NCBI GenBank assembly: GCA_903832735.1
Contig: CAILCO010000111.1
Span: forward strand, 1 to 64,000
DNA from: an uncultured Sterolibacterium sp.
GTDB lineage: Bacteria; Pseudomonadota; Gammaproteobacteria; Burkholderiales; Rhodocyclaceae
Reading direction: 5' to 3'
DNA: 64,000 nt
Shown here: one piece after another, positions 3,617 to 20,134 of the stretch
Layout of the letters: each line of letters starts with the position of its first letter
Numbering within the stretch: the first letter of the stretch is position 1
Position numbers and translations under genes: made by a program
The notes under the pieces: model-generated
Database searches by the model: none
The model's input: only the letters and a program-made list of their open reading frames with translations
Told to the model about the DNA's origin: nothing

Positions 3617-4345
3617 TTAATTTTGATTAGCGTCTACACCGCCGAAGCCAAGATAACTTTCGATGACTCTGGAATCCCCGGCCAATTGCGAGGCAGGGCC
3701 CTGCATAGTGACTTCGCCAAGTTCCATCACATAAGCGTAGTCGGCCACCTGTAATGCTGCGCGAGCGTTTTGCTCAACGAGAAGGATTGCGACACCATTT
3801 TGGCGCAGTACGGTAATGATTTGAAAAATTTCACGAACAATGATTGGAGCTAGGCCAAGACTCGGTTCATCCAGCATGAGCAGTTGCGGCCGCGCCATCA
3901 AGGCTCGCCCCATGGCCAACATCTGCCGCTCACCTCCGGATAGCGTGCCAGCCATCTGACTACGCCTTTCCCTGAGTCGCGGGAAGCGCCCGAATACGTC
4001 GCCGATGCGTTGGTCGATCTCGCGACGAGCGCAACGATTCGCGCCGAGAATCAGGTTGTCCCGTACAGACATGGTGGTGAATAAGTCACGGCTTTCCGTC
4101 ACGAGGCTCATTCCAAATGAAAAGCGCTTCTCGGTGGGACTCCGTGATATCGACTTGCCTCTGAACGTCACCTCCCCTTGGGCCGGCAACAGGCCCATGA
4201 TTGCATTCAAGAGACTGGTCTTCCCGGCACCGTTGGCGCCAATCACCGTCACAATGGAGCCCGGTGTGATTTCCAGCGAAACGCCCTGCACGGCCTGAAT
4301 CCTGGCATAGGCGACAGACAAGTCCGACACGGTGAGAAGGCTCAT
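3617..4345 (-). CDS. ABC transporter ATP-binding protein, LivF type
   Basis: The 242-residue protein is the second nucleotide-binding subunit of a branched-chain-amino-acid-type (HAAT) importer. It shows Walker A GANGAGKTS near residue 36, the signature LSGGERQML, and Walker B LLMLDEPSLGLAP, followed by the switch region ILLVEQN; LivF-type proteins carry exactly this EPSLGLAP form. The ATG overlaps the stop of the upstream fused permease/ATPase gene (ATGA), so it is the last gene of a livK-livH-livMG-livF operon. Given the flanking catabolic genes, the cargo is more likely an aromatic acid than an amino acid, as is known for several HAAT systems in aromatic degraders. Confidence 0.93.
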   Translation of the reverse strand: MSLLTVSDLSVAYARIQAVQGVSLEITPGSIVTVIGANGAGKTSLLNAIMGLLPAQGEVTFRGKSISRSPTEKRFSFGMSLVTESRDLFTTMSVRDNLILGANRCARREIDQRIGDVFGRFPRLRERRSQMAGTLSGGERQMLAMGRALMARPQLLMLDEPSLGLAPIIVREIFQIITVLRQNGVAILLVEQNARAALQVADYAYVMELGEVTMQGPASQLAGDSRVIESYLGFGGVDANQN

Positions 4346-6117
4346 ACGACGCCTCCAAGATACGCTTCCAGTACGATTGGGTTCTTTCTGATTTCGGCTG
4401 GCACGCCCTTGGCAATCAATTTTCCGAAATCAAGGACGACGAGGTGATCGGTCAGCCCCATCACGAATTCAACATCGTGTTCAACAAGCAGAATGCTCAT
4501 GCCTTCCGCTCTCAGCTTGTTCAGAAGCGCCGCCAGTTCGCGCTTTTCCAGATGGCGCAGGCCGGCGGCCGGCTCGTCGAGGAGCAATAGAGCCGGATCG
4601 AGAGCAAGGGCGCGTGCTATTTCAAGTATGCGCAATTGGCCCAATGCCAGGGAACCCGCGGGCCGATGCATATATTCGCCAAGCCCGACCCGTTGCAGCT
4701 GGCGTGCAGCCTCACCCAGTAGGCACTTCTCTTCAGCACGGTCCAGACGCAGCATGCCCGCCAGCAATCCGGCAGAACCGCGGATGTGCGCACCGATCGC
4801 CACGTTTTCCAGCACGGACATTTCCGGCGCCAGTTCGACGTGCTGAAATGTGCGAGCGATGCCTAGCGCGGCTATGTCGCGTGCTGGCATGGCATCGATC
4901 CGGCTTCCTCGAAAGAGTACCTCGCCGCCGGTCGCCCTAAGGAGGCCGGTGACCAGGTTGAAAGTCGTACTCTTGCCGGCGCCGTTAGGACCGATCAGGC
5001 CGACAATTTCCTTTGCGCCCACGAGGAACGTGACATCATTGACTGCGACAAGTCCGCCGAAGGACTTGCAAATGCCGCGAACATCGAGAACGGGGACGGC
5101 GCCGCTTTTCGGCATGGCTCGCTGCGCCAGGGAATCGTCAGACGGCACCGGCAATTTTTCCGGCCCGGCCGGAAAAGCATTGATGATCAAAGGCCATAGC
5201 CCATTTCGCGCGCTTTGCAAAATCACCACCAGCATGAAGCCGAACACGATGGTTTCGTAACTCCCTTGACCGCCGATCAGTTTGGGCAATATATCCTGTA
5301 GCTGATCTTTGAGGATGGTGACTATCCCGGCGCCCAGCACCGCGCCGAAGACATGACCCGCGCCGCCAACGACGGCCATCAGCAAGTATTCGATGCCGAT
5401 GTTGATACCGAATGCGGTCGGGTTGATGCTGCGCTGCAAGTGCGCATAAAGCCAGCCTGAAAGGCCTGCCAGCACCGCCGCGTAGACGAATACGATCAGT
5501 TTCACCTGTGCCGTGTCGATGCCGAATGCCTCGTTGGCGATCGTCCCGGAGCGCAGCGCGCGGATGGCGCGACCTAACCGGGTGTGGAGCAGATTGGTCG
5601 TCAGAAACATTGCCGCCAGCACCACCAGCCAGACGACCGGGAAGAAGGCGCGGCCATCAAACAGATCGTGGTGACCGATGCGCAGTGGTGGAATGCCGTT
5701 GATGCCGTCGTGTGCGCCGAGGAATTCCAGGTTGCCGAAGAGATAGAAAAAAGCCAGGCCCCAGGCCATCGTGCCTAGTGGCAGGTAGTGGCCGGACAAG
5801 CGGACGGTGATGCTGCCGATGGCGAGTGCAGCCGCGGCCGTCAAGACTAGCGCTATCGGCAGGGTGAGCCAGGGTGATATGCCGTAGGTGGTGGACAGTA
5901 CGGCCGTCGTATAGGCGCCGAAACCGACGAAAGCCGCCTGTCCGAACGAAGTCATGCCGCCAACTCCGGTGAGTAGGACTAGCCCCACGGCGACCAATGA
6001 AAATAGGCCGATGTTGTTAAGCAGGGAGATCCAGTAATCCGGGATGGGCGCGAGAGGAATGGTCAATATGACGAGGATCAGGATGACGGCGACGACTCCT
6101 GGATGTTTTGGATTCAT
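4342..6117 (-). CDS. Fused ABC permease-ATPase (LivM-LivG fusion)
   Basis: The 591-residue protein joins two subunits that are usually separate. Residues 1 to about 310 are a LivM-type permease: several membrane helices and the conserved stretch GVGGMTSFGQAAFVGFGAY. After a Pro/Ser-rich linker, residues from about 343 form a LivG ATPase with Walker A GPNGAGKST, signature LALGQLRILEIARAL and Walker B LLLLDEPAAGL. It overlaps livH upstream and livF downstream by 4 bp each. Fusion fixes a 1:1 permease:ATPase ratio; such fusions are known in HAAT operons of proteobacteria that import aromatic or carboxylic acids. Confidence 0.93.
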   Translation of the reverse strand: MNPKHPGVVAVILILVILTIPLAPIPDYWISLLNNIGLFSLVAVGLVLLTGVGGMTSFGQAAFVGFGAYTTAVLSTTYGISPWLTLPIALVLTAAAALAIGSITVRLSGHYLPLGTMAWGLAFFYLFGNLEFLGAHDGINGIPPLRIGHHDLFDGRAFFPVVWLVVLAAMFLTTNLLHTRLGRAIRALRSGTIANEAFGIDTAQVKLIVFVYAAVLAGLSGWLYAHLQRSINPTAFGINIGIEYLLMAVVGGAGHVFGAVLGAGIVTILKDQLQDILPKLIGGQGSYETIVFGFMLVVILQSARNGLWPLIINAFPAGPEKLPVPSDDSLAQRAMPKSGAVPVLDVRGICKSFGGLVAVNDVTFLVGAKEIVGLIGPNGAGKSTTFNLVTGLLRATGGEVLFRGSRIDAMPARDIAALGIARTFQHVELAPEMSVLENVAIGAHIRGSAGLLAGMLRLDRAEEKCLLGEAARQLQRVGLGEYMHRPAGSLALGQLRILEIARALALDPALLLLDEPAAGLRHLEKRELAALLNKLRAEGMSILLVEHDVEFVMGLTDHLVVLDFGKLIAKGVPAEIRKNPIVLEAYLGGVV

Positions 6118-7151
6118 TCGTGATGCTCGGCGGGAGGGCTGAACAGAGAGCGCCAGAGTAGTACGGGGATGATGATCGTAAACACGATGACTTCCTTGAA
6201 TGCACTGGCCGAGTATGACGAAAAAGACTCTACGGTGCCGACCAGGAGGGCGGCCGCGGCTGCCAGCGGGTAGCTGTTCAGGCCGCCCAGAATCGCGGCG
6301 ACAAAGCCTTTCAAGCCAATGATGAAGCCGGAATCGAAATAGATAGTCGTCAGCGACCCGATCATCAGCCCTGATACGGCACCAATCATTGCCGTCAGTG
6401 TGAATGCCAGATAGCCAGTGCGGTCTGTCGAGATGCCGACCAGCCGGGCACCGCGGCGGCTGATTGCCGCCGCCCGTAGCGTTTTGCCGCTTACCGTTCG
6501 TTCAAAGAAGATATACAGGGCAATGAGTAGTGCCGCAGTCGTCGCGACCACCCAGAGGCTCTGTGCGCTGACTGTCATGATTCCAAGGTCGAATACCGTT
6601 TCCGAGAACGCGCTGGTCTGATAGCCCTCGGGCCCAAAAAATACCAGGCCCAGACCTGTCATGCCCATATGCACGCCGACGGCTACTATCAGCAGGACGA
6701 GGATGGAGGATTCCGCCAGGGGTTGAAAGGCGATACGGTACACAAAAGGTCCGAGTGGAACGACTAGGGCCAACGTAAGGATCATTTCGGGGATCAAGCC
6801 CAACTTCATCGGCGCAACCCACTGGACGATCAGCAACATCACAGCGGGCAGGCCGATATCGGTGATGATGATGCGGATCGCTGTTGTCAAGCTCAGTGCA
6901 TGGCGCAGGCGAAACAGTGCCACGACGGCTGCGACAACGCCGACACCGAGCAGCAGCCAGGCAGTTCCCGGCACGCGTCCGGCCTCTAGGGCTGCCAGTG
7001 TCAGTGCGCCGTAAGTAACAAACTCACCCTGAGGAATAAACAGGACTCGCGTCACTGAAAACACCATGACCATGGTCACGGCAAGCAGCGCATAGATGGA
7101 CCCGCTGATGAGGCTGTCCTGCCCCAGCAGGAGCAGGGTTGTGGCGTCCAA
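6114..7151 (-). CDS. Branched-chain-type ABC transporter permease (LivH)
   Basis: The 345-residue integral membrane protein has the LivH hallmarks: an N-terminal segment SLISGSIYALLAVTMVMVFS, and near the C-terminus GSLTTIYFDSGFIIGLKGF then AAILGGLNSYPLAAAAALLV, which contains the conserved G-G-x-x-S/N motif that contacts the ATPase. It is slightly longer than the usual 290-310 residues, through an expanded central loop and helix. It lies 5 bp after the binding protein gene and overlaps the permease-ATPase fusion, so these are one transcription unit. Confidence 0.93.
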   Translation of the reverse strand: MDATTLLLLGQDSLISGSIYALLAVTMVMVFSVTRVLFIPQGEFVTYGALTLAALEAGRVPGTAWLLLGVGVVAAVVALFRLRHALSLTTAIRIIITDIGLPAVMLLIVQWVAPMKLGLIPEMILTLALVVPLGPFVYRIAFQPLAESSILVLLIVAVGVHMGMTGLGLVFFGPEGYQTSAFSETVFDLGIMTVSAQSLWVVATTAALLIALYIFFERTVSGKTLRAAAISRRGARLVGISTDRTGYLAFTLTAMIGAVSGLMIGSLTTIYFDSGFIIGLKGFVAAILGGLNSYPLAAAAALLVGTVESFSSYSASAFKEVIVFTIIIPVLLWRSLFSPPAEHHE

Positions 7152-7156
7152 GGTGA

Positions 7157-8308
7157 TTACCTGATCAACTTGAAGGCGCCATTTTCGACCCTGACCATCA
7201 CCCTGGCCCGGTCGTCGTAACCTGAGTGGTTGGTCGGCGACATGGACAGTATGCCGTTGATCAGGACCACCGATTTCGCACTCTCTAAGCCATCGCGAAG
7301 CGCTGCGCGGAATTCAGGCGTACCCGGTTTGGCAACGTTGAGCGCTGCCGGAACCGCATCCGAAATCAAATGAACACTGTCAACGAGGTGCGGACCGAAT
7401 GCGGCATAGGGTATCTTGTTGAGCGCTTCGTAGCGCTGGATATAGTCGAGAGCCAGTTTCTTGATCGGATTGCTGTCGGGAAGTTCACTGGCGGCGATGA
7501 TCGGTCCGGCCGGCAGTATGGCCCCCTCCACAAATTTTCCGCCGACGCGGATGAAATCCATCGATGCGACGCCGCTGGTATGATAAATCTGACCTTTATA
7601 ACCGCGCTCCTTCAATGCCTTTTGGGGCAGAACGGCCGGCGTTCCCGAAGCGCCGACCCAGACGGCGTCCGGTTTGGCTGCGACGATTTTTAGGATTTGG
7701 CCGGAGACGCTGGTATCAGTGCGGGTGAAAGATTCCTTGGCGATGATCTTGATGCCGCGCTCATTCAGCGTCTTGACCGCCGCAGCGTACCAGTTCTCGC
7801 CAAACGCATCATTGAATCCGATGAACGCTACGGTCTTGACGCCATTTTTCGCCATGTGTTCGGCGATTCCCTTGGCCAGGAGGGTATCGTGAGGCAGGAT
7901 CTTGAACACCCACTTGCGCTTTTCGTCCATCGGTTCAACCAGACCTGTGGCCGGATTCATCACGATCAGCGGGGTCTTGGTTTCGGCAGCAATGTCCACT
8001 AAAGGAAAAGTCGTCGGGCCGATCGATGAACCGATCAAGGCGTCCACATGCTCCACAGTGATGAGCTTGCGCGCGTTGGACACTGCCCGGGTGGCATCGG
8101 AAGCATCGTCAAGCACTATGTACTGAACCGGCTGTCCGGCAATCGTTGGAGGCAGCAAGGCCACGGTATTTTTTGCTGGAATGCCAATTGCGGCTCCCGA
8201 ACCGGTCGCGGATATGGTGATGCCAATCTTGATATCCGCCATCGCGCCACTTCCCCAGAACATCCCGAATGCGAAGGTCAGCGGAATGATATTTCGGGGT
8301 ATCTTCAT
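7157..8308 (-). CDS. Periplasmic binding protein of the branched-chain-type ABC importer (LivK-like)
   Basis: The 383-residue protein begins with a Sec signal peptide (about residues 1-24, ending GSGAMA before DIKIGITIS) and folds as a type I periplasmic binding protein. Early residues GITISATGSGAAIGIPAKN and the following ALIGSSIGPTTFPLVDIAAE are typical of ligand pockets that bind small carboxylates, including aromatic acids. A GAGGAG Shine-Dalgarno precedes the start. It is the first gene of the importer operon and shares a 267-bp divergent control region with the CoA ligase gene; the 14-bp palindrome there could regulate both directions. Confidence 0.92.
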   Translation of the reverse strand: MKIPRNIIPLTFAFGMFWGSGAMADIKIGITISATGSGAAIGIPAKNTVALLPPTIAGQPVQYIVLDDASDATRAVSNARKLITVEHVDALIGSSIGPTTFPLVDIAAETKTPLIVMNPATGLVEPMDEKRKWVFKILPHDTLLAKGIAEHMAKNGVKTVAFIGFNDAFGENWYAAAVKTLNERGIKIIAKESFTRTDTSVSGQILKIVAAKPDAVWVGASGTPAVLPQKALKERGYKGQIYHTSGVASMDFIRVGGKFVEGAILPAGPIIAASELPDSNPIKKLALDYIQRYEALNKIPYAAFGPHLVDSVHLISDAVPAALNVAKPGTPEFRAALRDGLESAKSVVLINGILSMSPTNHSGYDDRARVMVRVENGAFKLIR

Positions 8309-8515
8309 GTCTTTCTCCTCAGGAGCCTTATGATGCCCAACCGGCCGGTCGGTATTTATCGATCCGTATATTGTCTAACTCCATCGTATCGGTCAAGTGC
8401 TATTTGCTGGCCAAACTGATTGTTGTGGGTAAGTTTGGTAATTCTTTCTGGCGAGGGGCATTTCTAGCAAGGGGGCACTTGACCAAGGGCTTAAAGAAAG
8501 ATAAAGTTGGCTATA

Positions 8516-8529
8516 ACCGAACGTTCGGT
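8516..8529. promoter_or_regulatory. Perfect 14-bp palindrome, probable TetR operator
   Basis: ACCGAACGTTCGGT is a perfect inverted repeat lying 46 bp upstream of the CoA ligase start and overlapping a -10-like TATAAC (8512-8517). A copy differing at one base lies upstream of the hydroxycinnamoyl-CoA lyase gene (16266-16279). Fourteen-bp perfect palindromes with this geometry are typical TetR-family sites, and the only TetR gene in the area (13011-13598) is the last gene of the lyase operon. Confidence 0.7.
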
Positions 8530-8575
8530 AGGTAGCGGTAACGCTCGACCCAGCTTAGACCGACTGTAGGTATCC

Positions 8576-10159
8576 ATGGATTGGCCAAAAATAGCAGTTT
8601 GGGGCGACATCGCAAGGCATAATGCCGCGGTTTTTCCGGACAAACCCGCCTTCGTGAGCGGCTGTCGCGCACTCGCCTATGCGGAAGTCAATTCACGGAT
8701 CAATCAGTTAAACCACGCTTTTACAGCGCTTGGCCTGGCTCCGGGCGATAGAGTTGCTGTCCTCTCGCGCAATCGAACTGAGTACTTCGAGATCTATGGC
8801 AGTGCCAAAACTGGCTTGATCACTGTGCCCTTGAATTGGCGTTTGGCAGCGCGCGAACTTCTTTTCACACTCCTCGATAGTCGTCCGGCAGTGATTGTTG
8901 CTGAGCCTGACTTTGTCCCTACCATCGACGCCATGCGCCCAGAGTTGCCTGGCGTTCGACACTACATCGTGCTTGGCGAGGCCACGGCGGCCTGGATCGC
9001 ATATGAAACCATGTTGAGTGGATCATCCGTCGCTGAGCCACAATTGGCGGTGCACCCTGACGATGCGCTTTGCCTGATTTATTCGAGTGGCACGACCGGT
9101 GCGCCAAAGGGAGCGGTCATGACCCATCGCCGCGCCATTAATACTTGCAGGGCGATTGCCGAGGACATGCTTCATCTGACTTCAGAGGACGTCGGCTTGT
9201 CCGTGATGCCCTGGTTTCACGCAGGTGGAATGTGGTACCACCTGCTGCCAAGTTTTGCCTCAGGCGGAACCACGATCGTGCTGCCGGAGTTTGACCCGTG
9301 CGCGGTATTGAACGCCATAGCGGCTCACGGCGTCACTCAGATCCATCTCGTGCCCACCATGATCAGCATTCTCCTGGACCAGCCGGAAGTGCAGAGCATG
9401 GATCTGACGCGCTTGCGCGCCATCAAGTACGCTGCATCGTCGATCCCGCTCAGTGTGCTCAAGCGAGCGCTGCAAGTGTTCAAAGGCTGTGGATTCGTCC
9501 AGTCCTATGGCTCGACCGAGATGGGAGCCGTCACGGCTTTACTGCCTGAGGACCATATCGCCGCGCTCAAGGATACGTCGAAGGAAAATTTGCTGTTGTC
9601 CTGCGGACGTCCTATGCCTGGCGTCAAGATCGAGATTCGAGATGGCGAAGGCCGGCCCCTGGATCCAGGCGAGATTGGCGAGATCACCGTGCAGGGCGAC
9701 AGGGTCATGGTCAATTACTGGGAAAGACCCGAGCTGACGGCGACAGCCTTGGTCGAGGGCTGGCTATACACCGGCGACCTGGGCTATATCGACGGGGCAG
9801 GTTACCTGTATATCGTCGACCGCAAACACGACATGATCGTCACGGGTGGCGAAAACGTTTTTCCCCGCGAGGTCGAGGACATCCTCTATGAAAACCCAGC
9901 CCTCGCCGAAGTGGCCGTCTTTGCAATTCCCGATCCCAAATGGGTGGAAAGGGTGGCGGCCGCAGTTGTCCTCAAGAAAGGCCACGCCACGACCGCCGAG
10001 GAAGTGCGTAGCCGCGCCGCCAAGCGACTGGCCCCCTACAAATGTCCGAAGACAGTTCTGTTTGTCGATAAGCTGCCGAAGAATGCGAGCGGGAAGATCC
10101 TGAAGAAGGAATTGCGCCGTGAATATGCGAATTTCCTGACTGCAGCACCCGGGAAATGA
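8576..10159 (+). CDS. Acyl-CoA synthetase, candidate hydroxycinnamate-CoA ligase
   Basis: The 527-residue enzyme belongs to the class I adenylate-forming family: it activates a carboxylic acid with ATP and CoA. The P-loop-like motif YSSGTTGAPKGAVMTH, the A5 motif SYGSTEMGAVT, the A7/A8 region YTGDLGYID with VDRKHDMIVTGGENVFP, and the C-terminal catalytic lysine motif LPKNASGKILKKEL are all present. It is followed by an acyl-CoA dehydrogenase and shares an operator with the hydratase/lyase operon, so an aromatic acid with an acrylate or propionate side chain is the likely substrate, comparable to Acinetobacter HcaC. Sequence alone cannot separate this from medium-chain fatty acid activation. 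Confidence 0.85.
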   Translation: MDWPKIAVWGDIARHNAAVFPDKPAFVSGCRALAYAEVNSRINQLNHAFTALGLAPGDRVAVLSRNRTEYFEIYGSAKTGLITVPLNWRLAARELLFTLLDSRPAVIVAEPDFVPTIDAMRPELPGVRHYIVLGEATAAWIAYETMLSGSSVAEPQLAVHPDDALCLIYSSGTTGAPKGAVMTHRRAINTCRAIAEDMLHLTSEDVGLSVMPWFHAGGMWYHLLPSFASGGTTIVLPEFDPCAVLNAIAAHGVTQIHLVPTMISILLDQPEVQSMDLTRLRAIKYAASSIPLSVLKRALQVFKGCGFVQSYGSTEMGAVTALLPEDHIAALKDTSKENLLLSCGRPMPGVKIEIRDGEGRPLDPGEIGEITVQGDRVMVNYWERPELTATALVEGWLYTGDLGYIDGAGYLYIVDRKHDMIVTGGENVFPREVEDILYENPALAEVAVFAIPDPKWVERVAAAVVLKKGHATTAEEVRSRAAKRLAPYKCPKTVLFVDKLPKNASGKILKKELRREYANFLTAAPGK

Positions 10160-10199
10160 AAACCCTGCGAAACCGCGCAACTATCTCAGGTCAGTGGCT

Positions 10200-11345
10200 A
10201 TGAACTTATATTTCGATGAGGATCTGGAGCAGTTCCAGCACAATCTGGCACGCTGGGTCGATGAGCGCCTGGTGCCACAGGCAGAGGCACTCGACCAGAG
10301 CACGGCATTTCCGCGAGAGTTGTTCAAGGAATTGGGCGCACTCGGATACTACGGGATCATGTATCCGGAAGCTTATGGCGGCCTGGGCCTGGAGAAGCCG
10401 TACCTCTATTACACGGTGTTGTGCGAAGAGTTGGCCCGAGGCTCAATGGGCTTTGCCGCCATCGTGGGGATGCACGGTTCGGCGGCCACCTACGCGGTGC
10501 ACACCTGGGGTAGCGAAGCATTGCGACAGCGCTATCTGGTGCCGGCGCTACGCGGAGACATGGTCGCGGCCTTCGCAATCACCGAGCCGAATGCCGGCTC
10601 GGATGCTGCCGCCATTCGCACCCGTGCGCGCAAGGTGGATGGAGGCTACCTCCTCACGGGGAGCAAGGTGTTCATCTCCAACGGCTGCAATGCAGACTTC
10701 ATCACCGTTGCGGCGACCACGGATCCACAGAAGCGCTTGAAAGGTGTGGCATTGTTTTTGGTCGATGCCAAGACTCCCGGGTTTTCCGTGGCACGGCGCC
10801 TCGACAAGTTCACCACCCATTGTTCGGATACGGCTGAACTCGTGTTTGACGACGTCTTTGTCCCAGATGAATGCAGACTGGGCAGCGAGGAAGGCGGATT
10901 CCTGAATGCCTTCAAGTCGCTCACCGTAGATCGCATATTTACGGCAGCATTGGCCATCGGGACCGGACGCGCAGCCTATGATGCCGCTCTGAAATACGCC
11001 AAGGAGCGGCAACAGTTCGGCCAAGCCATAGGCAAGTTTCAGGCAGTGCAATTCAAGCTCGTCGACATGCTGGCCGAACTGGAACAATGCCGCCTATATA
11101 CCTATCATGCGGCAACGCTGGCCGATCGTGGCCAGCCCATCACCATCGAAGCGGCACTGGCAAAAATCATCGCAGCGGATGGGTGCAACGAGATCTGCCA
11201 GAAAGCGCTGAATATTTTTGGCGGCTACGGGTTGATGAACGAATACCCCGTGCAACGCTATCTGCGCGACTCCTACTTTCCGATGATCGGTGGCGGCACC
11301 AGTGACATCATGCGCATGCTAGTAGCGCGCCAATTAGATATATAG
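10200..11345 (+). CDS. Acyl-CoA dehydrogenase with non-canonical catalytic position
   Basis: The FAD enzyme oxidises the alpha-beta bond of an acyl-CoA to the enoyl-CoA. I place the start at the ATG at 10200 (381 residues), which is properly spaced from AGG at 10188-10190; the GTG at 10194 is too close. FAD motifs AFAITEPNAGSDAA and GSKVFISNG and the C-terminal RQQFGQAIGKFQAVQFKLVD and NIFGGYGL are present. The canonical YEGT catalytic Glu of MCAD-type enzymes is replaced in IGGGTSDIMR (Gly at about residue 365), and the alternative helix-G position used in isovaleryl-CoA dehydrogenase holds Asp (TVDRIF, about residue 244). Downstream of the CoA ligase it fits HcaD-like oxidation of phenylpropanoyl-CoA. 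Confidence 0.85.
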   Translation: MNLYFDEDLEQFQHNLARWVDERLVPQAEALDQSTAFPRELFKELGALGYYGIMYPEAYGGLGLEKPYLYYTVLCEELARGSMGFAAIVGMHGSAATYAVHTWGSEALRQRYLVPALRGDMVAAFAITEPNAGSDAAAIRTRARKVDGGYLLTGSKVFISNGCNADFITVAATTDPQKRLKGVALFLVDAKTPGFSVARRLDKFTTHCSDTAELVFDDVFVPDECRLGSEEGGFLNAFKSLTVDRIFTAALAIGTGRAAYDAALKYAKERQQFGQAIGKFQAVQFKLVDMLAELEQCRLYTYHAATLADRGQPITIEAALAKIIAADGCNEICQKALNIFGGYGLMNEYPVQRYLRDSYFPMIGGGTSDIMRMLVARQLDI

Positions 11346-11384
11346 GGTAGTGTTACTGTCAATTTTTGACCACAGGAGGTGAGA

Positions 11385-11789
11385 ATGGAAGCTCAGACAA
11401 TTTTCTCGTTGGCGCGCTGGCTGACCTGCGGCGTCTGGATTGGGGCCGGCATCTACAAGGCATTTCACTATAGGCAAACCATAGGAGAAATGACCCACAA
11501 CGGGATCCCGTTTGCCCAGCTTCTGTTGATCCCTGTCCTTGTCCTGGAAATGTTCGGCAGCTTGTTTCTAATCGCTAACACCTATGTCTGGGCAGTTGCG
11601 GCGGCATGGATTGCATTCCTTATCCTGGCCACGCCTTTCTACCACTTCGGCTGGTATACCAAAGATCGAAAGTTTGTTTTCCCGCAGATGGTACAAACCA
11701 CCAAGAACTTGTCCATGATGGGTGGCCTGCTCTGCCTGATCCTGCTCGATCCGAGTACGCCCGCGTATCTCGTCTCGAACATCAAGTAG
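11385..11789 (+). CDS. DoxX-family small membrane protein
   Basis: The 134-residue protein has four hydrophobic segments and the overall DoxX layout, including an N-terminal ARWLTCGVWIGAGIYKAFHY and the FLILATPFYHFGWYT loop. DoxX-like proteins are linked to membrane quinone-dependent oxidations or act as membrane anchors; most are uncharacterised. The ATG at 11385 sits 6 bp behind AGGAGG, so I prefer it to the GTG at 11379, which overlaps that site. It lies between the acyl-CoA dehydrogenase and the OYE gene, suggesting it passes electrons or tethers one of these enzymes, but this is inference. Confidence 0.75.
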   Translation: MEAQTIFSLARWLTCGVWIGAGIYKAFHYRQTIGEMTHNGIPFAQLLLIPVLVLEMFGSLFLIANTYVWAVAAAWIAFLILATPFYHFGWYTKDRKFVFPQMVQTTKNLSMMGGLLCLILLDPSTPAYLVSNIK

Positions 11790-11851
11790 CCAATCGGCAA
11801 GACCCGAGACATTGATTAATTTTGATGCATCATTTAATGACGGAGATGTGG

Positions 11852-12949
11852 ATGACTAGTGCGCTGTTTTCCCCCTTGACCCTACGCGGCCTGACGCTGC
11901 CCAATCGCGTCGCGCTCTCGCCCATGGGCCAATATATTGCAGAAGATGGTGCCGCCAATGACTGGCACATCGTCCACTACGGTCAATACGCCATGGGCGC
12001 GGTGGGTCTGGTGATCACCGAGATGACCAACGTCAGTCCCGAGGCCCGGATTACCCTGAACTGCGCGGGGCTCTACTCCGATGTCCAGGAAGCCGCGGCC
12101 AAGCGTGTCGTAGATTTCTGCAAGAAGTTCGGGACCGCCAAGATCGGCATACAGATCGCCCATGCCGGCAGAAAAGGCTCCGCCAACGTGCCCGCGGCAG
12201 GCGGCAAGCCGCTGACTGCGGCTGAAGGCGCCTGGACGACGGTGGCTCCATCGGCCCTGCCATTTGCTCCGGACTGGCCGGTACCCGAAGCGCTGACCAA
12301 GGCTGGCCTGGAGAAGATCAAGGCAGACTTCGTCGCAGCGGTCAAGCGCGCCGACCGGGTCGGCTACGACCTGATTGAGTTCCATGGCGGCCACGGCTAC
12401 CTGATTCACCAGTTCCTCTCGCCACTGTCCAACCAGCGCACTGATGAGTATGGCGGCAGCACAGAAAACCGGATGCGCTTTCCCCTAGAGACCTTTGCCG
12501 CGATGCGGGCTGCCTGGCCTGCCGAAAAGCCCATGGGTATCCGTGTCTCAGCAACCGACTGGGTCGAGGGTGGCTGGACGCCGGAAGAGACCGTCCTGTT
12601 CGCCCGCGAACTGAAGAAACTCGGTTGCGACTTTATCGATGTCAGTTCGGGCGGACTCGACCCGCGCCAACAGGTCCCGCTCGCGCCCGGCTACAACGCC
12701 CAGTTCGCCGCCAAGGTGAAGAAGGAAGCGGACATTCCGACCAGCACGGTAGGCTTAATCGTCGATGCCAATCTGGCCGAAGAAATCATCGCTTCGGGCC
12801 AGGCCGACATGATTGCGATCGGCCGCGGCGCCATGTGGGATCCGCGCTGGTCTTGGCACGCCGCACTGGAACTTGGCGCCGAAATCAAGTATCCGCCGCG
12901 CGCAACGCCTTGCATTCCGGCGCTGCGTCCGCAGATTTTTGCGACGTGA
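11852..12949 (+). CDS. Old Yellow Enzyme family NADH:flavin oxidoreductase (YqjM/XenA class)
   Basis: The protein (365 residues from the ATG at 11852, which follows GGAGA by 5 bp) is an FMN TIM-barrel ene-reductase that reduces activated C=C bonds. It shows QIAHAGRKGSAN, the substrate His pair in HGGHGYLIHQFLSP and TDEYGGSTENRMRFPLE, all typical of thermophilic-like/YqjM-class OYEs. At the position of the FMN-tuning cysteine of YqjM/XenA (Cys26) it has Gly (SPMGQY, G26), while Tyr28 is kept. XenA-type enzymes reduce coumarins, so a coumarin or enone in the same pathway is possible. It ends the plus-strand operon, facing tetR. Confidence 0.88.
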   Translation: MTSALFSPLTLRGLTLPNRVALSPMGQYIAEDGAANDWHIVHYGQYAMGAVGLVITEMTNVSPEARITLNCAGLYSDVQEAAAKRVVDFCKKFGTAKIGIQIAHAGRKGSANVPAAGGKPLTAAEGAWTTVAPSALPFAPDWPVPEALTKAGLEKIKADFVAAVKRADRVGYDLIEFHGGHGYLIHQFLSPLSNQRTDEYGGSTENRMRFPLETFAAMRAAWPAEKPMGIRVSATDWVEGGWTPEETVLFARELKKLGCDFIDVSSGGLDPRQQVPLAPGYNAQFAAKVKKEADIPTSTVGLIVDANLAEEIIASGQADMIAIGRGAMWDPRWSWHAALELGAEIKYPPRATPCIPALRPQIFAT

Positions 12950-12978
12950 CTGCGAAGGCTCTAGATTGAAACAGGCCG

Positions 12979-13007
12979 GCGACCGTATTTCCTGCAGATA
13001 CGGTCGC
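12979..13007. terminator. Strong hairpin between convergent OYE and TetR genes
   Basis: GCGACCGTAT (12979-12988) and ATACGGTCGC (12998-13007) form a perfect 10-bp stem with a 9-nt loop, in the 61-bp gap between two convergent genes. There is no long T run on either side, so this may be a bidirectional transcription stop or an mRNA 3'-end stabiliser rather than a classical intrinsic terminator. Confidence 0.55.
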
Positions 13008-13010
13008 AGG

Positions 13011-13598
13011 TTATGAGAGCAAGCCCTTCATAAAGATATCAACGATGGTTCTGGCCGCTTCCTCGCCGCTTTCCGGTCGAGAATAATCGAACCAGAAGAC
13101 AATCCAGCTTGCGCTGCCAAGCGCTGCGAAGGTCGCAAATGCAGGGTTAATGTGTTTTGGGCAACGTCCCTGCTCCTGTAATTCCACTATGGCTTTTTGC
13201 AGGACGCCATAACTGCGCCGCCATACGCCACTTATTTCCTTGTAGTGCTCCGGCGACATGCGTCGCGCTTCGCTCAGCAAAACCGTCGCAGTCGGCTCGC
13301 GCGTGAGTTGCCGCGCCAGATCGTAAAGATAGGTTCTAAGGCGGGTTTCCGCGTCGGTGATTTGTTCCGCTTTTTCGATCAGAGGCAGCAGATTCTTTTC
13401 TACTGACTTCTTGTGCACTGCATAGAGGATATGTTCCTTGTTCTCAAAATGATGGTAGATACCCGCTTTGGTCAGACCGACTTCTTTCGAAATGAGCGAC
13501 ATCGGGGTATTGTCGTAGCCTCTTTCAAGAAAGAGTTTCAGGGACAGTTGAATGAGTTCATCAACCCGGTCCAGTTCTGCGGGTTCTGGTTTATCCAT
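13011..13598 (-). CDS. TetR-family transcriptional regulator, probable controller of the aromatic cluster
   Basis: The 195-residue protein has the TetR DNA-binding domain at the N-terminus: LSLKLFLERGYDNTPMSLIS then KEVGLTKAGIYHHFENKEHIL, in which the recognition helix is T-K-A-G-I-Y-H-H-F. The rest is the helical ligand-binding domain. It is the last gene of the lyase-aldehyde dehydrogenase operon, so it would be autoregulated from the palindrome at 16266-16279; a matching palindrome precedes the CoA ligase. In this family a CoA thioester such as coumaroyl-CoA is a plausible inducer, but nothing in the sequence identifies it. Confidence 0.88.
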   Translation of the reverse strand: MDKPEPAELDRVDELIQLSLKLFLERGYDNTPMSLISKEVGLTKAGIYHHFENKEHILYAVHKKSVEKNLLPLIEKAEQITDAETRLRTYLYDLARQLTREPTATVLLSEARRMSPEHYKEISGVWRRSYGVLQKAIVELQEQGRCPKHINPAFATFAALGSASWIVFWFDYSRPESGEEAARTIVDIFMKGLLS

Positions 13599-13619
13599 GA
13601 CGTTCGTAAAGACCGATCC

Positions 13620-13817
13620 TCAATTATCGAAAGATTGTCCCGCCAACCATGCAGCGCCCCGCGCATATAAACGGTCCACCGCCGGGCCCTTGAGCATCGG
13701 CATTTCACGCTTGACGGTAAAGCCGATCTTGGTTTGCAGGTAGGCGAGATGTCGGTAGACTGCCCAGTCTTCGATGACCTGTCGCACGCGCAGTCGTTCT
13801 AGCATATCGTTCGTCAT
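13620..13817 (-). pseudogene. NTF2/SnoaL-like protein with a large in-frame internal deletion
   Basis: The 65-codon frame joins the two ends of a protein that is normally about 180-190 residues. Its first 22 residues (LRVRQVIEDWAVYR) match the N-terminal helix of NTF2-like family members, which normally continue D-x-G-D-W-E-R-F; the remainder, HLAYLQTKIGFTVKREMP and VDRLYARGAAWLAG, matches the family's extreme C-terminus, usually preceded by G-Y-R. The join falls at a Tyr-Arg common to both ends, consistent with deletion between short repeats. The barrel core is missing. It sits in line between the aldehyde dehydrogenase and tetR. Confidence 0.6.
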
Positions 13818-13837
13818 CGTCGCAGTTTCTTTGCTAT

Positions 13838-15286
13838 TCAGAATGGATAATGTTGCGGCGTTGATTCAATCGTGATCCAGCGCAGTTCGGTAAATTCATC
13901 GATGACCGCACGGCCGCCGAATCGGCCATAGCCACTCGCCTTGGTGCCACCGAAGGGGATTTGCGCCTCGTCCTGCACCGTCGCGCCGTTAACGTGGCAG
14001 CTGCCCGATTCGATGCGCATGGCGACCGATAAGGCTCGGCTGACATCGCGTCCGAAAACCGCGCCAGACAAACCATAGGCCGAGCTGTTCGCCAGGCGGA
14101 TGGCATCTTCGACGCCACGGGCGCGAACCACGCAGGTCATGGGTCCGAAGGTTTCTTCGTCGTATACGCGCATTTGCGGCGTCACATGATCAAGAATGGT
14201 CGCTGCCATGAACGGTCCGTTGACCTTGCCGCCGGTAACCAGCTTTGCCCCTTCCTTCAGCGAATCCGCTATGAGATTCTCGAGGCGTAAAGAGGCATCC
14301 GGCGTAATCAGGGGGCCGATCACGCAGGCTCCCTTGCGCGGGTCTCCGACAGGTAGCGCAGCTGCTCGCGCCACAAACTTCTCGACGAATAGGTCAGCCA
14401 CAGTCTCGTCGACTATGATCCGTTCGGTAGACATGCAAACTTGGCCTTGATACACGAAGGCGCCGAAAATAGCTGCGTTCACCGCTTCATCGAGATCGGC
14501 GTCGTCCAGGACCAGTAACGGCGACTTTCCGCCCAATTCCAGCAGTACCGGTTTGAGGTGACGTCCTGCTGTCTCCGCGATGATCCGACCGACACGGGTC
14601 GAGCCGGTGAAATTCACCCGTCGAACCGCGGGGTGGGCGATCAGCGCGCTGACGATATCACTGGCGTCTGCCGGGTCGTTGGTGATCACGTTCAGGACAC
14701 CTTTCGGTATCCCCGCTTCGCACAGAACCTTGGCGATGAGAAGATGCGTTCCCGGACTTAATTCGGAAGCTTTAAGGACGACGGTATTGCCGCAGGCAAG
14801 GGGATAGGCAATGGCGCGCGTTGCCAGAATCACCGGGCCGTTCCAGGGGGCGATGGAGAGGACCACGCCCACCGGCTGGCGTATCGTCATCGACAAGGTG
14901 CCGGGTTTGTCCGTGGGGATTGTTTCTCCCTGTATCTGTGTCGTCAGCGAAGCCGCCTCGCGGAGAATTCCAGCGGCGAGATGCACGTTAAACCCCGCCC
15001 AGCCTGCTGAGGCACCCACTTCACCGGCCATTACTGCAGCAAAATCGGCGGTGTGCGCTTCCATCAAGTCTGCCGCTTTCAGGAGCAGGCGACGTCGCTC
15101 TGTCGGGCCGGTTGCCGACCATGCCGGCAATGCCGCGGCAGCTGCATCGGCAGCGGAGATCGCGTCTTCGACCGTGGCGGCAGATGCCCGCGTGGCTACT
15201 TCATTGCTTACCGGATCATGCCTGAGATAGGTAGCGTCCCCTGTGGCAGCAACGTCTTCGTTGTTGATGAACAGTTTTGTATCCAT
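13838..15286 (-). CDS. Aldehyde dehydrogenase, candidate vanillin/hydroxybenzaldehyde dehydrogenase
   Basis: The 482-residue NAD(P)-dependent enzyme oxidises an aldehyde to an acid. The catalytic Cys284 lies in YQGQVCMSTERI and the general base Glu250 in LELGGKSPLLVL; the nucleotide-binding part contains FTGSTRVGR and SIAPWNGP. The overall sequence style (CMSTERI, VNFTGSTRVG, GTKASGYGRFGG) is that of the salicylaldehyde/vanillin dehydrogenase subgroup. It lies 39 bp downstream of the hydroxycinnamoyl-CoA hydratase/lyase, whose product is a hydroxybenzaldehyde, so the assignment follows from both sequence and position. Comparable genes are vdh and hcaB. Confidence 0.87.
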   Translation of the reverse strand: MDTKLFINNEDVAATGDATYLRHDPVSNEVATRASAATVEDAISAADAAAAALPAWSATGPTERRRLLLKAADLMEAHTADFAAVMAGEVGASAGWAGFNVHLAAGILREAASLTTQIQGETIPTDKPGTLSMTIRQPVGVVLSIAPWNGPVILATRAIAYPLACGNTVVLKASELSPGTHLLIAKVLCEAGIPKGVLNVITNDPADASDIVSALIAHPAVRRVNFTGSTRVGRIIAETAGRHLKPVLLELGGKSPLLVLDDADLDEAVNAAIFGAFVYQGQVCMSTERIIVDETVADLFVEKFVARAAALPVGDPRKGACVIGPLITPDASLRLENLIADSLKEGAKLVTGGKVNGPFMAATILDHVTPQMRVYDEETFGPMTCVVRARGVEDAIRLANSSAYGLSGAVFGRDVSRALSVAMRIESGSCHVNGATVQDEAQIPFGGTKASGYGRFGGRAVIDEFTELRWITIESTPQHYPF

Positions 15287-15325
15287 TTGCTATCCCTTCA
15301 TTTAAGTGGGTGAGCGGCTAGGTAG

Positions 15326-16192
15326 TCAGCTTTCTCGCTTGTAAGCGCCGAGTCCGGGCTTAAACGTTTTTGTGTCGAGGAACTGGGTCATGCCTTTTTC
15401 GCGGCCTTGCTCCGGGTCGGACGCATAAGTTTCTCCCGACTTGGCGTATAGGTAGTCCTCCGAGACATCCCAGCTCATTTCCTTGACACGTCTATAGCTG
15501 AGCTTGATAGCGCGGACGACGTGGAGATTTTTTTCCATCAACTTCAGGGCCAGCTGTTTCGTACGTTCGCGCAATTGGGCTAGCGGCACAGCCTCGTTGA
15601 CCAGCCGGGTTTCGCTGGCCTTCTTGCCGTCAAAGGGCTCGCCGGTCATGAGAAAATAGAGGGCGTCGCTGGTGCTCATTTTCTCTGCCACTGCCCGGAC
15701 GACGTTGCCTGCCGGGATGATGCCCCAATTGACTTCTGACAGGCCAAAAATGGCTTCTTCTGCGGCAATGGATAGATCGCATGATACGAGTGAAGTGAAA
15801 GCGCCGCCGAAGCACCAGCCATTCACCATGGCGATGGTCGGCTTGGGGTAAAACATCAGCCGTCGCCATTGCCAAGCCATTGAATCGCGGCGTATTCTCA
15901 TCACCTCGATGGGTGTCGCATTGTCGGTCTCGCGGAAGTATTCCTTCAAATCCATGCCCGAGGAATAGGATTCGCCGGCTCCGGTCAATACCAATACCTT
16001 GCAACGATCGTCTACTTCCAGTGCGTCCAGCACCTCGATCATTTCCCTGTTCAGGCTTGGGCTCATGGCGTTGCGCTTTTCCGGCCGATTGAGGATCACC
16101 CAAGCAATGCCGTCTTCGAACTCGACTTTGATGTTCTTGCCCCAAGGTTCCAAGTTATTCCCTACGGACGCATCTTTATCGACTATCGACAT
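15326..16192 (-). CDS. p-Hydroxycinnamoyl-CoA hydratase/lyase (feruloyl-CoA hydratase/lyase)
   Basis: The 288-residue crotonase-fold enzyme hydrates hydroxycinnamoyl-CoA and cleaves it to acetyl-CoA and a hydroxybenzaldehyde. It carries the HCHL-specific residues: SSGMDLKEYFRE for CoA and oxyanion contacts, Glu153 in LSEVNWGI (Glu143 in the Pseudomonas enzyme), Tyr248 in EDYLYAK (the phenol-recognising Tyr239) and the C-terminal FKPGLGAYKR. The roughly 10-residue offset reflects a longer N-terminus. It is the first gene of an operon with aldehyde dehydrogenase and tetR and has the TetR-like palindrome 73 bp upstream. Confidence 0.92.
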   Translation of the reverse strand: MSIVDKDASVGNNLEPWGKNIKVEFEDGIAWVILNRPEKRNAMSPSLNREMIEVLDALEVDDRCKVLVLTGAGESYSSGMDLKEYFRETDNATPIEVMRIRRDSMAWQWRRLMFYPKPTIAMVNGWCFGGAFTSLVSCDLSIAAEEAIFGLSEVNWGIIPAGNVVRAVAEKMSTSDALYFLMTGEPFDGKKASETRLVNEAVPLAQLRERTKQLALKLMEKNLHVVRAIKLSYRRVKEMSWDVSEDYLYAKSGETYASDPEQGREKGMTQFLDTKTFKPGLGAYKRES

Positions 16193-16265
16193 AAATTTAG
16201 CTCCATCATCTAGCGCTGCTCTGGTATTAACCAGGAGGTGTATGTTCTGAGGTTCTCATTAACCT

Positions 16266-16279
16266 ACCGATCGTTCGGT
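16266..16279. promoter_or_regulatory. Second copy of the TetR-type palindrome, upstream of the lyase gene
   Basis: ACCGATCGTTCGGT matches the perfect site at 8516-8529 at 13 of 14 positions; both half-sites ACCGA and TCGGT are retained. It is 73 bp upstream of the lyase start in an otherwise empty 286-bp gap. The repetition of this motif in two control regions of one pathway is the main evidence for a local TetR regulon. Confidence 0.7.
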
Positions 16280-16478: not shown

Positions 16479-17060
16479 TTATTTGGGAAGCCTCTTTCCA
16501 ACTAGGCGAACTTCGCCGATCAGATCTTCGATGGCCTTCAATACAAAATTGATCGTTGTCTCGTCAGTCAACTTTCCATCGACTATCTTCTGGTTGACCT
16601 GAGCGATGGCGACATGCTGTCGTGCGATCGGACGTGCCAAGGCTGCGCTTAGCACTTCGCGAATCTGGTATTGCGCGCGGACGCCGCCCGCCGTGCCAGG
16701 CGACGCGGTCATAATCAGCGCTGGCTTACCTTTTAGAGGCGACTGGAAGTTTGGACGGGAGGCCCAGTCCAGAGCGTTCTTCAGTACGCCGGGCATACCG
16801 TAGTTGTATTCCGGCGAACAGATGATTAAGCCGTCACTATGTTCAATCGAACTCTTAAGCGCGCGCACCGCATCGGGCGGTGAGTCGCCGTCTAAATCGG
16901 CGTTATAAAGGGGAATGTCGTTGAGTGGAAAAATCTGGAGTTCCAGTTCCTCGGAAAGGAGTTTCGCGATGGTTTGCAATACCGTCGAATTGTAGGACTC
17001 CCGCCGGATGCTACCTGAGATGCCAAGAAGTTGTATCGGCGAATGGCTGGCTTTTTTCAT
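16479..17060 (-). CDS. NAD(P)H-dependent FMN reductase (flavodoxin-like, ChrR/YieF type)
   Basis: The 193-residue flavodoxin-fold protein starts with the FMN phosphate loop GISGSIRRESYNS and contains the isoalloxazine loop SPEYNYGMPGVLKNALDW, both diagnostic for NADPH-dependent FMN reductases that act as quinone or chromate reductases. The product would supply reduced flavin or detoxify quinones formed from catechols. It stands alone on the minus strand, with a 286-bp gap (containing the lyase operator) downstream and a 402-bp gap upstream, so it is probably a separate transcription unit. Confidence 0.87.
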   Translation of the reverse strand: MKKASHSPIQLLGISGSIRRESYNSTVLQTIAKLLSEELELQIFPLNDIPLYNADLDGDSPPDAVRALKSSIEHSDGLIICSPEYNYGMPGVLKNALDWASRPNFQSPLKGKPALIMTASPGTAGGVRAQYQIREVLSAALARPIARQHVAIAQVNQKIVDGKLTDETTINFVLKAIEDLIGEVRLVGKRLPK

Positions 17061-17462: not shown

Positions 17463-18323
17463 TCAGGCGTCTCGCAGAACACATTTGCCGTTGGAAATGG
17501 CCAGGCGGCCGTTTTCCTTTATCCGCGCCTGAAAAGAAATCGTATTCCCATCACGCCACATTTCCACAATGAGTATTTGACCAGGAAGCACGGGCGAGCT
17601 AAAACGCCCCTGATGACTGGCGATGCGATCGGCATCGAACTCGACGTACGTTTCGAGAATTGCCCGACAGGTAATGCCGAAGCTGCACAGTCCATGAAGA
17701 ATAGGTCTGTCAAAGCCTGCAGCCAGAGCCGCTGCCGGTTCTGCGTGTATCGGATTTCGGTCTCCAGTTAGCCGATAGAGCAGTGCCGAATCTAGTCGGG
17801 TTGGCACCTCGATCGAACCGTCCGGCGCGCGGCTTGGCACTGTATGGGGTGGTGACGGGCGAGTTGTCGATCCGCCGCATCCGCCTTCGGCACGACCAAA
17901 GCAAGTGGTGGTAAGCGTTGCAATCGGCTGGCCATTGGCAATGTCGGTAATTTCGTGTCGTGTGACAACGATGGCGCCGCTGCCGCTGCCCTTATCGAAC
18001 ACATCGACGACGCTACCTTGTACTGAAACCTTGATCGGAAAGCTGATGCGATGGTGGAGTTCGATCCGCTGCTCGCCGTGCAGCGCAGTGACCGGATCAA
18101 CGCCTAGCTGCTCGAACGTCGGCTCGGCAATCCAGGCTAGCACAGTCGGGAACGTCGGAACAGCCTTGAGCGCCTGCTCATAGACAAATGGCAGTGCGCG
18201 GGGATTGAGAGGATCATTTCCCAGACCTAACGCCAGCGCATAAAGAATCGAATCGCTCTCATCCCACTCCCAGATCTGAGGGGCACTACGATGGTTGAGA
18301 ATCTCGGGATAGTGGATAGTCAT
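17463..18323 (-). CDS. MaoC-type enoyl-CoA hydratase (double hot-dog)
   Basis: The 286-residue protein has the two-domain layout of R-specific hydratase 2 enzymes such as peroxisomal MFE-2: an N-terminal degenerate hot dog (about 1-130) and a catalytic C-terminal one. The hydratase-2 motif is seen in YRLTGDRNPIHAEPAAALAA, with Asp and His as the catalytic pair, followed by GFDRPILHGLC. It hydrates 2-enoyl-CoA to a 3R-hydroxyacyl-CoA, often on bulky or steroid side chains in Actinobacteria and betaproteobacteria. It lies 51 bp downstream of the acyl-CoA synthetase gene, likely in one operon. Confidence 0.88.
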   Translation of the reverse strand: MTIHYPEILNHRSAPQIWEWDESDSILYALALGLGNDPLNPRALPFVYEQALKAVPTFPTVLAWIAEPTFEQLGVDPVTALHGEQRIELHHRISFPIKVSVQGSVVDVFDKGSGSGAIVVTRHEITDIANGQPIATLTTTCFGRAEGGCGGSTTRPSPPHTVPSRAPDGSIEVPTRLDSALLYRLTGDRNPIHAEPAAALAAGFDRPILHGLCSFGITCRAILETYVEFDADRIASHQGRFSSPVLPGQILIVEMWRDGNTISFQARIKENGRLAISNGKCVLRDA

Positions 18324-18374
18324 CGGTCGTCCTATTTGCTAAAGATCAGTGGTGCATACCAGCCAGACAACAGG

Positions 18375-20069: not shown

Positions 20070-20118
20070 GTCGATTCCTCACGCTACGCAGAAAAACGAA
20101 TTATCGAATGAATTGACG

Positions 20119-20134
20119 TTGACGTAAACGTCAA
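20119..20134. promoter_or_regulatory. 16-bp palindrome upstream of the acyl-CoA synthetase gene
   Basis: TTGACGTAAACGTCAA has 7-bp perfect arms around AA and lies 49 bp upstream of the start codon; another TTGACG half directly precedes it (20113-20118). The ACGT-centred arms resemble operators of MerR-type regulators of acyl-CoA and branched-chain degradation (LiuR-like). No such regulator gene is in the window. Confidence 0.55.

Follow-up and report, generated by a model that had tools for sequence, protein, structure and literature searches.

A predicted TetR regulon with three operators over the importer, CoA ligase and hydroxycinnamoyl-CoA lyase operons of an uncultured Sterolibacterium sp.

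Introduction

A TetR repressor of phenylpropanoid catabolism that senses CoA thioesters has already been reported. PprR of the betaproteobacterium Aromatoleum aromaticum EbN1 (Vagts et al. 2021) adjoins a phenylpropanoid-degradation cluster and, in the available excerpts, is described as a TetR-type repressor of the 3-phenylpropanoate genes with 3-phenylpropanoate CoA thioesters as effectors (PMC9765128, PMC10866074); response thresholds of strain EbN1 are given for compounds including p-coumarate and cinnamate. It is said to work alongside catabolite repression and an unknown activation, and the 2012 paper on its pathway names beta-oxidation of 3-phenylpropanoids in the title. MbdR of Azoarcus sp. 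CIB (4uds) is likewise a TetR repressor induced by an aromatic CoA thioester; it serves an anaerobic 3-methylbenzoate pathway, its operators (ATAC-N10-GTAT) span promoter elements and transcription starts, and a CoA-ligase promoter is also under its control. PfmR (TTHB023) of Thermus thermophilus HB8 (3vpr) regulates acyl-CoA metabolism genes and is tied to fatty-acid and phenylacetate-related genes; its published site is TACCGACCGNTNGGTN, with genomic sites such as ACTACCGACCGTTCGG, which typically overlap core promoter elements. Control of hydroxycinnamate catabolism by hydroxycinnamoyl-CoA effectors is described for CouR, FerC, HcaR and FerR, all of which are MarR-type. These accounts rest on excerpts of the literature on the comparison systems (PMC7022988, PMC4424350, PMC9765128, PMC10866074, PMC10715001, PMC10458429, PMC5343134), in which no motif letters were found for FadP or LiuQ and no effector is named for PfmR.

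Here we give an account of a locus in which the proposed regulator, encoded in the presumed operon of a hydroxycinnamoyl-CoA lyase gene, is a TetR and not of the MarR type. The original prediction for this DNA had called a TetR controller a different solution for the pathway, a claim weakened by PprR, with which our locus is compared by description only. What is new, and well supported by sequence comparison, is a putative TetR regulon of three operators serving the hydroxycinnamoyl-CoA lyase route, in contrast to the beta-oxidation associated with PprR; no TetR regulon for this locus was found described in the open-licence literature searched.

Genes of the locus

The window, by which we mean the whole stretch of 64,000 nucleotides analysed, carries the following genes at the locus.

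3617..7151, - strand, remaining genes of the ABC importer, namely an ATPase (3617-4345), a permease-ATPase fusion (4342-6117) and an ORF (6114-7151) taken as a permease by position
7157..8308, - strand, livK, solute-binding protein (Pfam; PDB matches led by 3sg0 and 4dqd, followed by the groups 3tx6/4f8j/4fb4 and 3ukj/4eyo/4eyq)
8576..10159, + strand, acyl-CoA ligase (Pfam; top PDB matches 8weu and 8wev, which carry the names fatty-acyl-CoA synthase and feruloyl-CoA synthetase, respectively)
10194..11345, + strand, acyl-CoA dehydrogenase (Pfam)
11379..11789, + strand, DoxX-family membrane protein (PF07681)
11822..12949, + strand, old-yellow-enzyme-type NADPH dehydrogenase (Pfam, PDB)
13011..13598, - strand, tetR, proposed repressor of 195 aa (TetR_N and TetR_C_24, Pfam), at the end of the presumed lyase operon
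13838..15286, - strand, aldehyde dehydrogenase (PF00171, E 6.9e-155)
15326..16192, - strand, p-hydroxycinnamoyl-CoA hydratase/lyase (equivalog NF006588, 429.6 bits against a curated cut-off of 276)

The lyase is also matched in the PDB by 6p5u (E 3.3e-118), 6l3o (6.9e-106) and 2j5i (9.1e-106). The livK product is probably a solute-binding protein of the aromatic-acid type; several of its PDB matches presumably hold phenolic acids. The acyl-CoA dehydrogenase plausibly oxidises dihydro-hydroxycinnamoyl-CoA, a substrate assigned by inference. The old-yellow-enzyme-type gene has no counterpart in the ORF list of L009, the orthologous Sterolibacterium locus in genome G006. The proposed regulator in the presumed lyase operon is a TetR without a MarR domain, and the sole MarR_2 match in the window (21311-21400) lies inside an IclR gene.

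Operator sites and promoter geometry

Three near-palindromic sites were located in the window, none of them assigned a strand.

8340..8353, predicted operator O1, ACCGGCCGGTCGGT, 31 bp 5' of the livK start codon
8516..8529, predicted operator O2, ACCGAACGTTCGGT, 46 bp 5' of the CoA ligase start codon
16266..16279, predicted operator O3, ACCGATCGTTCGGT, in gene direction ACCGAACGATCGGT, 73 bp 5' of the lyase start codon

O2 and O3 lie exactly where two near-identical palindromes had been noted, and their likeness exceeds the palindrome: read toward the downstream gene, both follow ACCGAACG(T/A)TCGGTAGGT, with 17 of 18 positions identical. O1, which the original prediction had missed, stands just 5' of livK and has one half-site base off the consensus. 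A single site common to livK and the ligase gene was rejected once O1 had been found, since the 8516 site then need not serve the importer, and a separate predicted operator precedes each of the importer, the ligase operon and the lyase operon.

The strict motif ACCGANCGTTCGGT occurs at 2 places in the whole 4,329,657-base genome (4.33 Mb), both at this locus, against 0.155 expected from a first-order Markov model in which the composition of the window is applied to the whole genome; for the two intergenic gaps the expectation is 2e-5 against 2 matches found. The wider pattern ACCGRNCGNTCGGT occurs at 6 places, namely O1-O3 and three positions within open frames (contigs C73, C84 and C2), and the six further one-mismatch loci in the genome (L003-L008) also fall within open frames, counted as frames of at least 100 aa, some of them perhaps spurious. 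The strict motif is thus not scattered over the genome, and a random genomic spread, which the original prediction had named as contrary evidence, was rejected, all other wider-pattern and one-mismatch matches lying in open frames.

Each site is preceded by a candidate promoter.

8368..8396, - strand, candidate livK promoter, TTGACC-17-CAATAT; O1 begins 14 bp past the second hexamer, with the same spacing in L009
8479..8507, + strand, candidate ligase promoter, TTGACC-17-TAAAGT; O2 begins 8 bp past the second hexamer, with the same hexamers and spacer in L009
16290..16318, - strand, candidate lyase promoter, TTGACG-17-TAGAGT; O3 begins 10 bp past the second hexamer

The second hexamer of the livK promoter is weak (3/6 bases), and this promoter is absent from a stricter promoter scan. 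The lyase promoter of L009 reads TTGACG-17-TAAAGT, likewise with 10 bp to the operator. Across seven promoters in three genomes, TTGAC(A/C/G) is followed by 17 bp, the second hexamer and then 8, 9, 10, 10, 10, 14 or 14 bp to the operator. A 17-bp spacer with the operator 8-14 bp downstream of the promoter fits repression at the transcription start.

Conservation in the genus

All three sites are kept in G006, where ACCGRNCGNTCGGT occurs at three places, all of them at L009.

10447-10464 of L009, O1 counterpart, in two overlapping registers
10331-10344 of L009, O2 counterpart
4008-4021 of L009, O3 counterpart

Between the window and L009, 26/28 and 13/14 site positions are identical, against 149/228 and 126/217 ungapped positions outside the sites, where the first codons of the flanking genes are counted as outside. 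A more distant genus member, G153, has a 14-mer identical to O1, 5' of a livK relative and beside a 47%-identical tetR; most other neighbours of this tetR differ, and the contig ends soon after. Its tetR adjoins an importer gene, and its lyase gene lies on a different contig next to a weak match of MarR type, so regulon membership varies by lineage.

The tetR gene is present in 3/5 genus genomes, and in all three a site accompanies it at the locus. Sites are therefore retained at the two other genus loci with tetR, and the loss of sites from such loci, also named beforehand as contrary evidence, was not seen. At the limits used, neither G071 nor G119 gave a tetR or lyase match; G071 has no ACCGRNCGNTCGGT match and G119 has one, inside an open frame. 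Absence counts as weak evidence in these two genomes, whose completeness is 87% and 80%. The full set of three sites is kept in only one close ortholog, that of G006.

The TetR protein and its operator type

The TetR protein matches TetR_N (PF00440, E 1.5e-13) and TetR_C_24 (PF17932, E 1.4e-15), both above the Pfam cut-off. Its nearest solved relative by sequence is PfmR (3vpr, E 5.1e-21; 30-31% identity), which is also the best fold match (TMq 0.85) of a predicted structure with a mean pLDDT of 84.8, built on an alignment of 3 sequences. Closest in fold are PfmR and the structures of AibR with isovaleryl-CoA and of FadR with stearoyl-CoA; ranks 1-11 include 3vpr, 5k7h/5k7z and 3whb/3whc, and MbdR follows at rank 39. 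AibR of Myxococcus (5k7f, 5k7h, 5k7z; 24-25% identity) shares the recognition region TKAG-YHH-NKE and has a short acyl-CoA effector, isovaleryl-CoA. By letter comparison, O1-O3 are of the PfmR operator type, an ACCGAnCG-type near-palindrome at the promoters of the regulated genes.

The same operator type recurs among wider relatives, sought in 297, 369 and 398 genomes drawn from larger groups at family, class and phylum level. Among 40 other TetR relatives, partly fetched by the shared peptide YHHFENKE (38 have YHHFENK), 9 have a site at most 300 bp 5' of the match start, 5 of these with perfect half-sites, against expectations of 0.14 from shuffles that preserve single bases only and 0.36 from the remaining sequence of the same loci. 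By record title the nine form about six groups; the other 31 have no such site. YHHF is absent from a set of 27 weaker family TetRs, which gave one upstream site against 0.1 expected (orientation-aware), and the one TetR concerned carries the similar helix SKAGVYHYF. No site occurs at the loci of L054 and L110, the relatives from the class-wide and phylum-wide searches.

Some relatives' lyase genes have a MarR neighbour. At seven relatives' lyase loci, where regulators were sought by MarR_2 and TetR_N searches, the motif scan gave a single weak match in each of L076 and L080 and, in G175, a one-mismatch site in the promoter of a MarR-flanked lyase gene; similar palindromes can therefore arise without this TetR.

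Alternative explanations

That the sites are functionless chance palindromes is highly improbable. A looser scan of the window with two mismatches is much less striking than the strict one, its 6 matches being reached by 4/100 shuffles, and the half-site pattern with one mismatch behaves likewise, but the two strict matches in the gaps, together with conservation and promoter geometry across genomes, speak against chance, which was rejected on genome rarity, the wider-pattern scans and the window/L009 footprint. It is unlikely, though less so, that the palindromes are operators of another TetR elsewhere in the genome, for example a fatty-acid or branched-chain regulator, and that the local TetR acts elsewhere. 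The genome has 12 TetR_N matches, a further TetR, on contig C79, matches the A1 profile (E 8e-16), and the same operator type is found beside other TetRs with similar recognition helices; against this, the wider-pattern matches in G006 are confined to the locus, G153 has the same 14-mer beside its tetR relative though most other neighbours differ, and in genus members lacking tetR any match falls inside an open frame.

There is an appreciable possibility, below even odds, that TetR binds the sites but answers to another effector, whether dihydro-cinnamoyl-CoA, some other acyl-CoA (for instance a steroid side-chain thioester) or a phenolic acid in free form. The acyl-CoA dehydrogenase in the ligase operon would suit saturated side chains, and PprR, as described, responds to 3-phenylpropanoate CoA thioesters. 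The genus Sterolibacterium is known for steroid degradation. Against these points, the lyase clears the hydroxycinnamoyl-CoA lyase cut-off by a wide margin, so hydroxycinnamoyl-CoA is at least a likely intermediate.

Proposed mechanism and significance

One TetR regulon over the importer, the ligase operon and the lyase operon is well supported at the sequence level. This part of the original prediction stood, backed by the scarcity and conservation of the sites, their placement relative to the promoters and the type of operator bound by the nearest characterised TetR; its account of the importer gave way to a separate operator, O1, and membership proved to vary by lineage. The sites, their rarity, conservation and promoter-like geometry, and the gene content are read from the DNA directly. 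We infer the binding of TetR to O1-O3, its repressing role, the operon structure and the CoA-thioester effector.

In our main reading, to which we give a probability of about 0.78, an acyl-CoA-responsive TetR of the PfmR type would repress the O1-O3 promoters until released by a hydroxycinnamate-type CoA thioester. The TetR dimer would bind the three near-palindromic operators preceding the importer (O1), the CoA ligase/dehydrogenase/DoxX/OYE operon (O2) and the lyase/aldehyde dehydrogenase/tetR operon (O3). The operators lie just 3' of the second hexamer and probably cover the transcription start, where bound TetR would block initiation. Hydroxycinnamate or dihydro-hydroxycinnamate entering the cell would be converted to its CoA thioester by basal ligase, and the thioester, bound by the C-terminal domain of TetR, would free all three promoters. 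With tetR apparently at the end of the O3 operon, its expression would be self-limiting.

More tentatively, and at somewhat less than an even chance, a TetR of the PfmR type, linked in its ancestral state to an aromatic-acid importer (cf. G153), may have captured the ligase and lyase operons in this Sterolibacterium-like lineage; it would then stand in for the usual MarR repressor of the pathway, giving one self-limiting three-operator switch over the full hydroxycinnamoyl-CoA lyase route from uptake to aldehyde oxidation. The proposal is well founded, but the switch would be a fairly ordinary case of a kind that related bacteria are known to have. If true, the proposal would offer a directly testable three-operator regulon and a candidate biosensor part for lignin-derived phenolics, the presence of the importer in the regulon would suggest a phenolic acid as importer substrate, and the TetR family would be seen in the role of the MarR family on the same pathway.

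Probable operator sites and their distribution

A single TetR regulon over the importer, CoA ligase and lyase operons is, as a whole statement, well supported by the sequence (probability roughly 0.78), and the three sites taken alone are very probably operators. The elements concerned are as follows.

8340-8353: putative operator before livK, 31 bp upstream of its start
8516-8529: putative operator before the CoA ligase gene
16266-16279: putative operator before the lyase gene
11822-12949: OYE gene
13011-13598 (-): tetR, proposed repressor
L009, 4008: site before the lyase gene (motif scan of locus)
L009, 10331: site before the ligase gene (motif scan of locus)
L009, 10447-10464: site before livK, two overlapping registers (motif scan of locus)

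L009 is the orthologous Sterolibacterium locus of genome G006, which comes from an uncultured member of the genus. The two palindromes of the original prediction, at 8516-8529 and 16266-16279, were confirmed at these coordinates, and the similarity runs beyond them (ACCGAACGTTCGGTAGGT and ACCGAACGATCGGTAGGT, each read toward its own downstream gene). A genome scan for random scatter found ACCGANCGTTCGGT at 2 places in the whole 4,329,657 bases, both inside the cluster, against 0.155 expected genome-wide under a Markov model built from the window. The proposal that two palindromes govern all three operons stood in that sites precede all three, but the importer has its own third site, at 8340-8353, which the window scan recovered as a two-mismatch match, ACCGGCCGGTCGGT; this separate operator follows from livK-side sites in both the window and L009.

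The window's genome has ACCGRNCGNTCGGT at 6 places: three at the cluster and three (contigs C73, C84 and C2) inside open frames. By whole-genome counts of the other genus genomes, G006 has 3 places, all within the orthologous locus; G153 has 2, of which one accompanies tetR and the other falls inside an open frame; G119 has 1, inside an open frame; and G071 has 0. The acyl-CoA cluster at 17463-24407 (MaoC, second CoA ligase, enoyl-CoA hydratase, TctC and an IclR regulator) has no strict sites.

Conservation and promoter geometry

Between the window and L009, 26/28 site positions are identical in the livK-ligase gap versus 149/228 ungapped positions outside the sites; the lyase gap gives 13/14 versus 126/217. 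The expected co-conservation with tetR was borne out: the gene is present in 3/5 genus genomes (the two lacking it are 87% and 80% complete), and all 3 carry a site at the tetR locus. The G153 tetR, 47% identical to that of the window, adjoins the gene for a solute-binding protein that shares 47% identity with the window livK product, and a 14-mer identical to the 8340-8353 site lies between them.

A promoter scan of 10.5 kb returned 8 candidates, including those for ligase (8479-8507, +) and lyase (16318-16290, -), versus 6.3 expected, and so proves nothing on its own; comparison across genomes is more telling. The candidate ligase promoter is TTGACC-17-TAAAGT in both window and L009, the operator following after 8 and 9 bp, respectively. 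For the lyase, the candidates are TTGACG-17-TAGAGT and TTGACG-17-TAAAGT, respectively, with the operator 10 bp beyond in both, and for livK TTGAC(C/G)-17-CAATAT, where the operator is 14 bp away in each case (18 bp if the second L009 register is taken). The livK relative of G153 has a candidate TTGACA-17-TATAGT, again followed by the operator after 10 bp. Operators so placed would cover the transcription start, as is reported for MbdR and discussed for PfmR.

The proposed TetR regulator and its relatives

The tetR product carries TetR_N and TetR_C_24 domains (Pfam), and its nearest solved relative is 3vpr, named in the fold search as PfmR of Thermus thermophilus. With the AlphaFold model (mean pLDDT 84.8, alignment of three sequences), PfmR was closest, followed by AibR with isovaleryl-CoA and FadR with stearoyl-CoA; MbdR ranked 39. 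For PfmR (TTHB023) the literature gives TACCGACCGNTNGGTN as the predicted site, with ACTACCGACCGTTCGG and CCTACCGACCGGTCGG among the sites that were measured.

Of 40 TetR relatives, ortholog L009 excluded, 9 carry a site no more than 300 bp upstream of where the match begins and 31 have none, against 0.14 expected from shuffles and 0.36 from the density elsewhere in those loci. The figure is indicative, since the record titles of the 9 point to about six groups and a shared peptide was used in part to fetch the set (38 carry YHHFENK). Weaker family TetR loci, none with YHHF, have an upstream site in 1/27, and the helix region of that one, SKAGVYHYF, is close to TKAGLYHYF of the G153 protein. 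The motif scan found no site in the loci of two more distant relatives, L054 and L110. In each of the loci L010 and L012 a perfect ACCGAACGTTCGGT precedes a distant TetR relative by about 90 bp, which suggests a widely shared operator type. L109 (genome G224) has ACCGGTCGGTCGGT some 246 bp upstream of a TetR with a helix region close to this group.

Pathway genes

Its score clearly marks the lyase as a p-hydroxycinnamoyl-CoA hydratase/lyase, and the best solved matches of the CoA ligase include one named feruloyl-CoA synthetase. In the PDB comparison, solved binding proteins came up as matches of the livK product. Several of these proteins hold coumarate or caffeate. With its acyl-CoA dehydrogenase the route would also be open to saturated side chains. 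The OYE gene is probably accessory, since no counterpart was seen in the L009 ORF list, where the ligase operon ends with DoxX, next to tetR. In the window tetR ends the presumed lyase/aldehyde dehydrogenase operon, and it is separated from the aldehyde dehydrogenase gene by a small open frame (13620-13820, -; roughly 65 codons as read by eye) that has no Pfam match and, also by eye, looks like a shortened version of a SnoaL-type gene. The two genes nearly touch in L009. An FMN reductase gene (16479-17060) lies upstream of the lyase operon in the same direction; in L009 a reductase-like gene, so named by eye, takes its place but is divergent.

Comparison with known regulators

With the limit set at E 1e-80, a lyase occurs in 9/297 family genomes (10 matches), and among these 9 this tetR adjoins it only in the window's genome and G006. 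MarR_2 matches lie beside 3/8 other lyases, one each in G198, G175 and G153 (the last below the family cut-off), and none is listed beside the remaining five (the second in G198, and those of G066, 248 bases from a contig end, G142, G116 and G121). The G142 lyase has a TetR_N match some 5 kb away, and no motif was found in that 14 kb locus. The MarR-lyase gap of G175 (L077, G175:C1:3478000-3493000, position 7071) contains ATCGATCGTTCGGT, one base away from the motif half-sites, so not every such palindrome should be taken for a TetR site.

MarR regulators with hydroxycinnamoyl-CoA effectors are the usual solution, and the original prediction had regarded a TetR controller as a different solution. 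It is not new in kind, since Aromatoleum aromaticum already has a reported TetR-like repressor, PprR, for its 3-(4-hydroxyphenyl)propanoate cluster. According to papers citing the original work (PMC9765128, PMC10866074), PprR responds to CoA thioesters, and catabolite repression and an unknown activation act alongside it. For the present TetR we infer a hydroxycinnamoyl- or dihydro-hydroxycinnamoyl-CoA thioester as effector. The features that still set this case apart are its tie to the lyase route, an operator for the importer and a layout of three sites.
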